Origin: an uncultured Pseudomonas sp.
GTDB taxonomy: Bacteria; Pseudomonadota; Gammaproteobacteria; Pseudomonadales; Pseudomonadaceae
Direction of reading: 5' to 3'
Assembly (NCBI RefSeq): GCF_946885955.1
Contig: NZ_CAMPHI010000048.1
Span: 1 to 37,420, forward strand
DNA length: 37,420 nt
Part shown: one piece after another, positions 11,725-14,644 of the stretch
Layout of the letters: each line of letters opens with the position of its first letter
Position numbering within the stretch: the stretch's first letter is position 1
Position numbers and translations under genes: made by a program
Notes under the pieces: generated by a model
What the model saw: the letters and a program-made list of their open reading frames with translations, nothing else
What the model was told of the DNA's origin: nothing
Databases searched by the model: none

Positions 11725-12060
11725 TCACAAGCCCTCAGCCAACAGGCGGGCAATATCCTCGGGCAATGGTTGCGGGACCAACGGCCCGACCCGACGAGTG
11801 CCGGGGTTACCCAGGGGATACAGCCCCAACAACGAACCCAGACTCCCCGGCAAACGCAGCAATTGCGCCAGACACTCGGCCCAGTCGCGCTGCCGCCAGG
11901 CCCAGGCCAGCAACCACAGATGGCTGCGCAGATGCTCACCGAACACCGGCTGGCCGAGAATATGCGCGCGCTCCAGATGCCGCAGCTCAGCAGCCGGATC
12001 AATGCCGAGCTGCGCGCGGGCCAATTGGTATTCGAGAAGAAAAGCTTGTCGCCGGGTCAT
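11725..12060 (-). CDS. DUF3703 family protein
   Basis: A 111-residue protein with the DUF3703 pattern: MTRRQAFLLEYQLARAQLG, then ELRHLERAHILGQPVFGEHLRSH with closely spaced His residues, and LLAWAWRQRDWAECLAQLLRLPGS. It is predicted helical and cytoplasmic. AGGAG 9 bases upstream of the ATG supports the start. The His-rich helix suggests metal binding, but I know of no function. It is the gene nearest to the CRISPR array on the trailer side, separated by about 97 bases. Confidence 0.7.
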   Translation of the reverse strand: MTRRQAFLLEYQLARAQLGIDPAAELRHLERAHILGQPVFGEHLRSHLWLLAWAWRQRDWAECLAQLLRLPGSLGSLLGLYPLGNPGTRRVGPLVPQPLPEDIARLLAEGL

Positions 12061-12157
12061 TACGGTCGCTCCTGACTAAAATGCGCCGCCAGTCTGCAAC
12101 CCCGGGGCGGCCCCCAGGTCAAGTAGGAGTCAGACGGATGATCGCCTGATACCCATC

Positions 12158-12247
12158 CGGTTCATCCCCGCTGGCGCGGGGAACACACAGATCCATTAGG
12201 TCGGCTCCACCACAACTTCGGTTCATCCCCGCTGGCGCGGGGAACAC
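12158..12247 (-). CRISPR. Minimal type I-E CRISPR array: two repeats, one spacer
   Basis: Two identical 29-base repeats (12158-12186 and 12219-12247) flank one 32-base spacer (12187-12218). On the minus strand the repeat starts GTGTTCCCCGCGCCAGCG and ends GGGGATGAACCG, with the CCCCGCGCCAGCGGGG-type hairpin. From memory this is one base from the Salmonella/E. coli type I-E repeat (ATGAACCG for ATAAACCG). Both the repeat length and the 32-base spacer are exactly canonical for type I-E. Orientation is set by the repeat and by the A+T-rich leader on the high-coordinate side. The trailer-end repeat shows no decay. No cas genes occur in the window. Confidence 0.93.
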
Positions 12248-12344
12248 TTAGCGTAACCGACTGTTCTAAAAAGGAAAAAGCGGACGCTAAAAATCTACCG
12301 ATTTTTATCTATAACTTTCCTTGTTAAAGAGCGCCGAACGCTTA
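12248..12344 (-). promoter_or_regulatory. CRISPR leader with boxA-like antitermination site
   Basis: About 97 A+T-rich bases precede the first repeat on the minus strand and follow the stop of the acyl-CoA dehydrogenase gene. GCTCTTTAACA (12322-12332 in plus coordinates) matches the core of the ribosomal boxA signal and lies 75 bases from the repeat. Further on come GGTAGATT (also known from the E. coli I-E leader, from memory), an 8-bp A+T inverted repeat (12288-12295/12300-12307) and a weak IHF-like match (12254-12266). No clear -10/-35 pair was found; the promoter may lie within the end of the upstream gene. Confidence 0.65.
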
Positions 12345-13994
12345 TCAAACCAGATGCGGCGTACTGCGCGCCAGCAGGGCTTCAACGTCGAGGCCGCGTG
12401 GCAGGGTGCCGTAGACTCGGCCGCCGGCGCCCAGACGGCTGGCGATAAAGGCATCGGAGACTGCGGCGTTGCCGGCTTCCAGCAGCAGTTTGGCTTGCAG
12501 GGCCAGGGCCACGTCTTCGGTCAGTTGGCGGGCGCGGTACTGGATGTCGTCGGTGTTGCGGAAGTCGGCCTGGAGCTTTTCGATATGCGCTTTCAGCCGC
12601 GTATCGCCATGGCCGTCGCCCAGTTCGGCGAAAAGGGCATCGAGCACCCCCGGTTCCTTCGACAACGCGCGCAGCACATCCAGGCATTGCACGTTGCCGG
12701 AGCCTTCCCAGGTGGAGTTGACCGGCGCTTCGCGGTACAGCCGCGGCAGGATGCTGTCTTCGACGTAGCCGGCGCCGCCCATGCATTCTGCGGCTTCGTT
12801 GATCATCGCCGGGGCGCGTTTGCAGATCCAGTATTTGCCCACGGCAGTGACCAGCCGGGCGAATTTGTCTTCCTGCGGGTCGTGCGGGTTGTCCAAGGCC
12901 TTGCCCATGCGCATGGTCAGCGCCAGCGCCGCTTCGCTCTCCAGCGCCAGGTCGGCGAGCACGTTCTGCATCAGCGGCAATTGCGCGAGCGGACGCCCGC
13001 CGACCTCGCGGTAAGCGCAATGGTGCATGGCCTGGGTCAGGGCCTGACGCATCAGGGCGCTGGAGCCGATCATGCAATCGAAGCGGGTCAGCGCGACCAT
13101 CTCGATGATGGTCGGTACGCCACGCCCCTCCTCGCCGACCATCCAGGCCAGGGCGCCGCGGTATTCCACTTCGCTGGAGGCGTTCGACCAGTTGCCCAGT
13201 TTGTTTTTCAGCCGTTGGATATAGAACGCGTTGCGTGTGCCGTCCGGCCGGTGGCGCGGCAGCAGGAAGCAGGTCAGGCCTTTGTCGGTGTGGGCCAGGG
13301 TGAGGAAGGCGTCGCACATCGGCGCCGAGCAGAACCATTTATGGCCGACCAGCTCATAGGCCTGACCGGGACCGCCGACGCCCATCGGGTAGGCGCGGGT
13401 GGTGTTCGCGCGCACGTCGGTGCCGCCCTGTTTCTCGGTCATGGCCATGCCGATGGTGGCGCCGGTCTTCTGCTCGATCGGCAGGTTGCGCGGGTCGTAC
13501 TGGGTCGAAAGGATCTTCGGCAACCAAGCCTCGGCGAGGTCCGGCTGCAGGCGCAATGCCGGCACGCTGGCGTAGGTCATGGTCAGCGGGCAGCCGCTGC
13601 CGGCTTCGGCCTGGCTGTGCAGGTAGCTCATGGCGGCGCGGGCGACCTGGGCGCCGTCGCGCGGATCGGTCCAGGGCATCGACGGCAGGCCATGGGCGAT
13701 GGCCGCGCTCATCAGTTGGTGATAGGCCGGATGGTATTCGACCAGGTCAATGCGATGGCCGAAGCGGTCGTGGCTCTTGAATACCGGCTTGTTTTCGTTG
13801 GCGAGAAAGCCCGCGGCCATCAGCTCGCCGCCGGCCAGGGCGCCGTAGGTGTCGAGCTTCTGCTCGGCCCAACCGCCGCCGAAGCGTCGGGTCCATTCCT
13901 GCAGCGGCAGATCGATGCGGTAGAGGTTGGCGCCGTCGAGCGGCGGCGCCTGGTTGAACACTTCGTGGGTTTCGGCGTGCAGGCTGGCTTTCAC
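12345..13994 (-). CDS. AidB-like acyl-CoA dehydrogenase
   Basis: A 549-residue flavoprotein of the acyl-CoA dehydrogenase superfamily, closest by eye to E. coli AidB (about 541 residues). It shares TEKQGGTDVRANTTRA, LVGHKWFCSAPMCDAFL, LKNKLGNWSNASSEVE, MVGEEGRGV, LTRFDCMIGSSALMRQA and EAPVNSTWEGSGNVQCLDVLR. AidB in E. coli belongs to the alkylation response; others in this branch act on acyl-CoAs, so the substrate is open. The start is GTG at 13994: AGGAG lies about 8 bases upstream and the codon overlaps the TetR stop (GTGA). This gives translational coupling to the regulator gene, which is probably its repressor. Confidence 0.88.
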   Translation of the reverse strand: MKASLHAETHEVFNQAPPLDGANLYRIDLPLQEWTRRFGGGWAEQKLDTYGALAGGELMAAGFLANENKPVFKSHDRFGHRIDLVEYHPAYHQLMSAAIAHGLPSMPWTDPRDGAQVARAAMSYLHSQAEAGSGCPLTMTYASVPALRLQPDLAEAWLPKILSTQYDPRNLPIEQKTGATIGMAMTEKQGGTDVRANTTRAYPMGVGGPGQAYELVGHKWFCSAPMCDAFLTLAHTDKGLTCFLLPRHRPDGTRNAFYIQRLKNKLGNWSNASSEVEYRGALAWMVGEEGRGVPTIIEMVALTRFDCMIGSSALMRQALTQAMHHCAYREVGGRPLAQLPLMQNVLADLALESEAALALTMRMGKALDNPHDPQEDKFARLVTAVGKYWICKRAPAMINEAAECMGGAGYVEDSILPRLYREAPVNSTWEGSGNVQCLDVLRALSKEPGVLDALFAELGDGHGDTRLKAHIEKLQADFRNTDDIQYRARQLTEDVALALQAKLLLEAGNAAVSDAFIASRLGAGGRVYGTLPRGLDVEALLARSTPHLV

Positions 13995-14644
13995 GATTGT
14001 GACTCCTCTTCGGGCGATGGAGCGCCGACGGCGCGCAAACAAAAGGTGATCAGGCTGTGGCTGACGGCTTCCAGCGCCAGGGCCGGCCGTCCGGCTTCGC
14101 GGGCCGCGCGCGCCTGGGGCGAAAGTGGGCCGACCAGGGCTTCGGCAATGGCGCCGACCAGGCAGGCGGCGATCAGGTTGACCTGATCGAGATGGAAATC
14201 GCCGCTGGCGATGCCCTCTTCGAGCAACTCGGCGAACAGTTCGGCATAGGCCACGCGATACAGCAGGCGCTGTTCGTCGACTTCCGGTTCGACCGGTTCG
14301 GCGATCAGGGCGAAGGCCAGGCGCCGGCTATGCCAGGCGCGCTCGGCGAACTGGCGCAAGCCCTCGGCCAAGCGCGCCACCGGGCTGCCGGGGGCACGCA
14401 GAACGCAGGCCAGGGCATCCACCTCGCGTTGGCTGGCGAGGGCGAAGACTTCGGCGGCCAATTCGCCCTTGCCGCGAAAATGCCGATACAGGCTGCCGGT
14501 AGCGATGCCGACATCCTCGGCCAGGGCCTGCATGGTCAGGGCGACGAAACCGCCGGCGGCGACGCGCTGCAAGGCGCAAGCGAGGATGCGCTGGCGCAGT
14601 GCCTGGTCGCGGTCGATACGCAGTGGGCTGGTGCGATATGCCAT
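13991..14644 (-). CDS. TetR family transcriptional regulator
   Basis: A 217-residue regulator. The N-terminal HTH covers about residues 13-58: RQRILACALQRVAAGGFVALTMQALAEDVGI, ATGSLYRHFRGKGELA. The rest is a helical ligand-binding domain (QFAERAWHSRRLAFALIAEPVEPEVDEQR), resembling regulators of fatty-acid/acyl-CoA genes. It is first in a two-gene operon; its TGA overlaps the GTG of the acyl-CoA dehydrogenase. Two palindromes immediately before the start are likely operators, implying autorepression of the operon, with the ligand possibly an acyl-CoA. Ligand and targets are inferred. Confidence 0.9.
   Translation of the reverse strand: MAYRTSPLRIDRDQALRQRILACALQRVAAGGFVALTMQALAEDVGIATGSLYRHFRGKGELAAEVFALASQREVDALACVLRAPGSPVARLAEGLRQFAERAWHSRRLAFALIAEPVEPEVDEQRLLYRVAYAELFAELLEEGIASGDFHLDQVNLIAACLVGAIAEALVGPLSPQARAAREAGRPALALEAVSHSLITFCLRAVGAPSPEEESQS

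Follow-up and report, generated by a model that had tools for sequence, protein, structure and literature searches.

A one-spacer type I-E CRISPR array of Pseudomonas as a likely remnant of a deleted CRISPR-Cas locus

A stretch of 37,420 nucleotides from an uncultured Pseudomonas species (contig NZ_CAMPHI010000048.1; hereafter the window) carries an array of clustered regularly interspaced short palindromic repeats (CRISPR) that consists of two type I-E repeats and a single spacer. The array lies between a gene for an AidB-like acyl-CoA dehydrogenase (ACD) and a DUF3703 gene, with no recognisable cas gene in the window. From the comparison with other Pseudomonas genomes, we consider it likely that a complete type I-E CRISPR-Cas locus once stood between ACD and DUF3703, and that the present array was left behind when its cas genes were deleted; the array is probably inactive.

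The type I-E site after the acyl-CoA dehydrogenase gene

A repeat search of the window found exactly two copies of a 29-nt repeat at up to 3 mismatches, while the maximum in any of 100 shuffles was 0. The two copies are 100% identical, lie on the minus strand with a spacing of 61 nt, and read GTGTTCCCCGCGCCAGCGGGGATGAACCG on that strand; the array runs in the same direction as both neighbouring genes. The single spacer between them is 32 nt long, which is the length of 217 of the 226 spacers compared (225 from relatives and that of the window). With repeats of about 29 nt at 32-nt spacing, a conserved leader, and a repeat that stands beside I-E cas genes in relatives, the window feature is a genuine type I-E mini-array. 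The initial annotation had described two identical 29-base repeats around one 32-base spacer in minus orientation, with an intact terminal repeat, a leader-like sequence, DUF3703 and acyl-CoA dehydrogenase genes as neighbours, and no cas gene in 37 kb. The repeat search confirmed the array, Pfam identified the two neighbours, and the leader proved real, since the 97-nt leader query of the window aligned at 72-88% identity over 52-89 nt with 16 leaders in 11 repeat-bearing Pseudomonas genomes. A tblastn search with eight Cas proteins of the relative G200 as queries, at E values up to 1, revealed no recognisable cas gene in the window. There were ten weak matches, the best of which (Cas5, 34.5% over 55 amino acids, E 2e-4) was antisense to a histidine kinase gene and the other nine had E values of 0.07 or more; a Cas2 query in the correct frame gave two matches, with E values of 0.75 and 0.91.

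The initial annotation had also raised the alternative of a scattered palindromic repeat. Against this, a search at up to 1 mismatch found the repeat in 12 Pseudomonas genomes out of 398 (drawn evenly from a larger group; relatives carry G numbers). Eight of the 12 hold at least seven copies, which marks a genuine CRISPR repeat. The copies per genome at this threshold were 34 in G026, 7 in G095, 38 in G149, 12 in G193, 12 in G200, 31 in G269, 93 in G283, 2 in G316, 2 in G336, 34 in G368, 3 in G381, and 1 in G393.

By sequence, the gap after ACD is a recurrent type I-E site. An array or a lone repeat lies downstream of ACD in 11 of the 12 repeat-bearing genomes (about 550 bp downstream in G336), and the arrays of the remaining genome, G269, are about 410 kb from ACD, with none beside it. 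A search of 18 genomes at 3 mismatches gave G010, G012, and G015 as positives: G010 and G012 each have two decayed repeats at the ACD site, G012 with a further fragment, and the 3-mismatch repeat of G015 was left unplaced relative to ACD. Array-less sites also exist, with an ACD-DUF3703 distance of 84-88 bp in L007, L011, L017, and L103; the DUF3703 matches of L079 and L085 begin right after ACD and look partial, and these were not used as empty sites. The 3' end of ACD was matched in 386 of the 398 genomes, with a best identity of 88% over 600 bases, so the source species of the window very likely lies outside the genomes searched. As separate observations, G269 (L067, 12752-14672) has two pairs of duplicate spacers side by side (18/19 and 25/26), and one of its spacers also occurs in array 2 of G283; in addition, a plasmid record of P. 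aeruginosa (CP109682.1, 133800-138044) carries ACD and amn, possibly as a mislabelled chromosomal contig or an unusual megaplasmid.

Several relatives hold a complete locus at this site. In G200, the order is ACD, leader 1, array 1 (3 repeats), the cas operon, leader 2, array 2 (13 repeats), and DUF3703, and the operon cas3-cse1-cse2-cas7-cas5-cas6-cas1-cas2 matches the Cas3, Cse1, Cse2, Cas7e, Cas5e, Cas6e, Cas1e, and Cas2e models. The same order from ACD to array 2 is found in G026 and G283, whose cas genes are homologous to those of G200, and in G368, where it is judged from Cas7e, Cas6e, and Cas1. G149 is split over contigs, with ACD, a leader and an array on one, and cas, a leader and an array on the other. 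Thus the site that holds the window array holds cas genes in relatives, and its outer neighbours, ACD and DUF3703, are those of G200. The window array shares the site, a homologous leader, and the same repeat (0-2 mismatches to nearly all copies) with the loci of G026, G200, G283, and G368; unlike the window, these four have kept the cas genes and two arrays. The right neighbour of array 2 in G026 and G283 is a cobalamin riboswitch (found by Rfam in G283 and by motif in G026). In one lineage, such a riboswitch follows immediately after the array (L070 8648-8850, L069 7064-7266, and L074 9179-9381), and its core motif is present within about 250 bp after ACD in the array-less L003, L008, L013, and L016.

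Cas-less arrays in relatives and a deletion in a sister pair

Eight relatives (G095, G193, G316, G336, G381, G393, G010, and G012) have a solo array or relic after ACD, and the repeat was found in them only at that site. Genome-wide searches found neither Cas7e (7 of 30 genomes examined were positive) nor Cas6e (6 of 18 positive) in any of the eight. In six of them no Cas1 of any type was found (8 of 18 positive), and the Cas1 of the other two, G095 and G193, is type I-F. Nor were cas remnants found in the fetched loci of the eight by tblastn with the G200 Cas proteins at E values up to 0.01. The solo arrays of G010, G095, G336, and G393 are on chromosome-sized contigs, while the other solo genomes may be drafts. 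The relics of G010 (L010, 3776-3864) and G393 (L075, from 8784) are decayed, leaderless one-spacer arrays at the same site with homologous spacers, and a relic common to these two related species indicates that such scars can persist through speciation while decaying. Away from the ACD site, type I-F Cas1 genes are present in the same stretch in G095 (L114, 1345-2331), G193 (L113), and G283 (L115); the one in G095 adjoins an apparent repeat array, and two of these three genomes, G095 and G193, are without I-E Cas7e and Cas6e.

The deletion itself can be read in one pair of genomes. G095, in which I-E cas is absent, and G283, in which it is present, are sister rows in the ACD tree with support 98/90. 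The G095 leader is identical to leader 1 of G283 at 72 of 72 positions and to leader 2 at 58 of 72. G095 has 7 spacers and G283 array 2 has 58, and the final three are identical in both. No G095 spacer matched G283 array 1 at 24 or more letters, and the arrays of both genomes abut the same cobalamin riboswitch. The identity to leader 1, the end spacers of array 2, and the shared riboswitch together indicate that in G095 array 1 contributed the left end and array 2 the right end. On these sequence comparisons, the G095 array is demonstrably a chimera, with cas deleted between two arrays. The other four G095 spacers may derive from lost portions of array 1 or array 2, or may have been acquired later.

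Given the full architecture in relatives, the repeated solo states, and the deletion in the G283/G095 pair, we infer that the window lineage took the same route. We propose that the ancestral locus between ACD and DUF3703 would have had two arrays of the same direction, with similar leaders and nearly the same repeat, flanking a cas operon. Deletion by recombination between arrays requires that they have the same orientation. Type I-E array pairs almost always do (PMC12814883), and in G200, G283, and G026 the two leaders of a genome are the same at 52-56 of their final 60 nt. Homologous recombination between the two arrays would have removed the cas genes and most spacers, and the product would be the ACD-side leader, one spacer and two repeats, adjoining the flank of array 2. 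In the window, the 3' end of ACD and a leader stand to the left of the array and DUF3703 to its right, an arrangement that a G200-like locus would show after losing all that lay between its two arrays. In the absence of Cas6e and Cascade, the remaining array would now be silent; there may be leader-driven transcription at most, and the RNA would have no I-E effector.

We also built an ACD tree of 50 rows, in which a row was labelled 'none' if the fetched sequence showed no array downstream of ACD, so that remnants with more than 7 mismatches would be missed. The solo state (the eight relatives and the window, 9 rows) needs 8 changes on this tree, of which at least 6 are forced by well supported branches. 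Presence, loss, and absence of the array are scattered rather than clade-bound, because shuffled labels need a similar number of changes.

Leader, spacer and competing explanations

The leader of the window agrees with those of relatives at 46-55 of 70 aligned columns; no leader match was found in G393, G010, or G012. Compared with the other leaders, it is longer by about 12 nt upstream of the core and is missing one GT at the leader-repeat junction. A badly decayed leader was considered and rejected: with the 12 extra nt left out, 1 of 28 otherwise invariant columns is changed in the window, within the range of 0-3 for the other 16 leaders. In the E. coli system, leader positions -1 to -4, -9 to -35 (IHF), and -50 to -55 guide integration (PMC10011333), and by analogy the missing GT and the 12-nt longer leader may hamper the integration of new spacers in the window array. 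No sigma-70 promoter match was found near the array; terminator-like matches numbered two, with 0.7 expected. The array region had no Rfam match, and the fold of a 90-nt array transcript (z -2.1, with 7 of 200 shuffles as stable) is mostly the two palindromic repeats pairing together.

There is no convincing target for the window spacer in the databases and genomes searched. Exact matches in IMG/VR viral contigs were 0 for the spacer. A phage search with the spacer gave weak matches only, the best with an E value of about 3, in 7 phage records, and the array as query matched a Klebsiella phage across the spacer with an E value of 2. The plasmid search likewise gave weak matches only (E about 9, 2 plasmid records). 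Among the 225 spacers of relatives, none is shared with the window, the best agreement being 15 of 32.

Several observations weigh against a cas deletion in the window lineage. The chimera is architectural only in the window, which has no spacer in common with another array: G095 shares spacers with a cas-bearing relative, and the window, whose nearest ACD is at 88% identity, does not. The leader core has no clear assignment to leader 1 or leader 2 (best 55/70 with leader 1 of G149 and 54/70 with leader 2 of G200), and the stretch between the last repeat and the DUF3703 promoter region is not visibly like that of G200. The identical repeats and the little-decayed leader core resemble an array in use. 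For the source organism, the absence of cas covers the 37,420 bases of the window, which limits what can be said genome-wide. In the ACD tree, the window branch is placed without support, and shuffled labels need about as many changes as the real ones (mean 8.5; 204 of 500 as low); the changes may be gains as well as losses, and the gain of a single array without cas may be an alternative.

The initial annotation was right on the anatomy, the I-E type, the orientation, and the leader; the three readings it offered, however, omit the cas-deletion remnant that the comparison favours. In one of them, the window feature would be a satellite array that still depends on type I-E cas genes at another place in its genome. 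This would agree with repeats identical to those beside I-E cas operons and with the largely conserved leader core, and the G269 locus, far from ACD, makes a distant location possible. We nevertheless regard it as unlikely, since Cas7e and Cas6e were not found genome-wide in any of the eight relatives with the repeat only at the ACD site; the changes in the leader, as judged from E. coli, might also be unfavourable for integration. A newly seeded array, in which one spacer was integrated at a leader and a single repeat, would account for exactly one spacer, identical repeats, and a leader. It fits poorly with the long or decayed arrays that several Pseudomonas hold at the same site, and it needs a matching Cas1-Cas2, which was not found in the window; among the eight solo relatives, six have no Cas1 and two have type I-F Cas1 only. 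We therefore hold new seeding to be very improbable.

The mini-array could also be kept for a non-immune function, either as a regulatory CRISPR RNA or with an anti-cas spacer that keeps I-E cas from re-entering, a role described for I-F orphan arrays of E. coli. Orphan arrays with anti-cas spacers have been described (PMC8616872), and the repeats of the window array are intact. However, the window spacer reached at best 18 of 32 over stretches of seven cas regions, below the mean of 19.3 for 30 shuffles (maximum 22). The same test on 27 spacers (the window and the solo relatives, without some spacers from the decayed tail of G193) put 2 above the maximum of their own 30 shuffles, each by one letter: G193 spacer 10 (23 of 32) and G381 spacer 1 (22 of 32). 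Given 27 tests, this excess is taken as chance. The regulatory RNA that the initial annotation had suggested gains no support either, as the spacer occurs once in the window, with no second copy, has no match in the 398 Pseudomonas genomes with up to 3 mismatches allowed, and resembles no spacer of relatives beyond the agreement given above. A non-immune function of either kind seems extremely unlikely.

A deletion remnant thus remains the reading we favour for the window array. It is conceivable, if doubtful, that the I-E cas operons of this Pseudomonas group, flanked as they are by two direct-repeat arrays, act as excisable cassettes: recombination between the arrays would remove cas, and the scar array with its leader would remain as a homologous landing pad by which a complete I-E cassette could return to the same place.

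Features of the window and known parallels

Table 1. Features at and around the mini-array (positions in the window)
Feature	Position	Strand	Basis
AidB-like acyl-CoA dehydrogenase (ACD), upstream of the array	12345..14042	-	Pfam AidB_N and Acyl-CoA_dh
Linker from ACD stop to leader core; about 12 nt (12307-12318) absent from the other aligned leaders	12307..12344	-	Alignment; gap placement is the aligner's
Conserved leader core; the usual ...GCTAAGT at the leader-repeat junction is missing one GT	12248..12306	-	Alignment with leaders of relatives
Leader-proximal I-E repeat	12219..12247	-	Repeat search; the same repeat occurs in long arrays next to cas operons
Single 32-nt spacer without a convincing target	12187..12218	-	Target searches
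Leader-distal (terminal) I-E repeat, intact	12158..12186	-	Repeat search
Array-distal flank and DUF3703 upstream region; position corresponds to the right side of G200 array 2	12061..12157	-	Alignment
DUF3703 gene, downstream neighbour	11725..12060	-	Pfam PF12487

The window array is a new example of a known phenomenon, the cas-less orphan array. Arrays without cas are abundant in genome surveys (PMC12814883), and some of them have been credited with functions of their own (PMC8616872). A close parallel is found in E. coli, in which strains with I-F cas have two arrays around the cas genes and strains that lack these genes retain just one, with few spacers (PMC4489801). The merged orphan array CRISPR4.1-2 described in that report is like the window array in that two arrays flank cas in complete strains and cas-less strains keep one small array. 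Unlike CRISPR4.1-2, the window array is type I-E and from Pseudomonas, and while the E. coli orphan spacers match I-F cas (PMC8616872), the window spacer matches no I-E cas region tested.

Touchon and Rocha (2010) reported relic CRISPR/cas loci with few repeats in Escherichia and Salmonella, and suggested that CRISPR may survive the loss of cas and act as a hot spot for integration (PMC2886076). As described there, those relics show total or partial cas deletions, frameshifts, and insertion sequence (IS) insertions, whereas no cas remnant was found at the Pseudomonas ACD site; also unlike those relics, the deletion in the G283/G095 sister pair is readable from leader and spacers. The mini-arrays of prokaryotic viruses (PMC8616872) are alike in having one spacer between two repeats and no cas. 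In contrast to them, the window array lies between ACD and DUF3703, has a leader common to cellular I-E loci, and its exact repeat was found in 0 IMG/VR contigs. A literature search gave no paper on the ACD site by title or start of abstract among the matches listed; a description in print is possible.

The comparison gives a simple explanation for one cas-less array. The G283/G095 pair is the most useful lead, as its leader and spacers record the loss of cas, and with it the rate and the route of CRISPR-Cas loss become testable at one chromosomal site across a genus.
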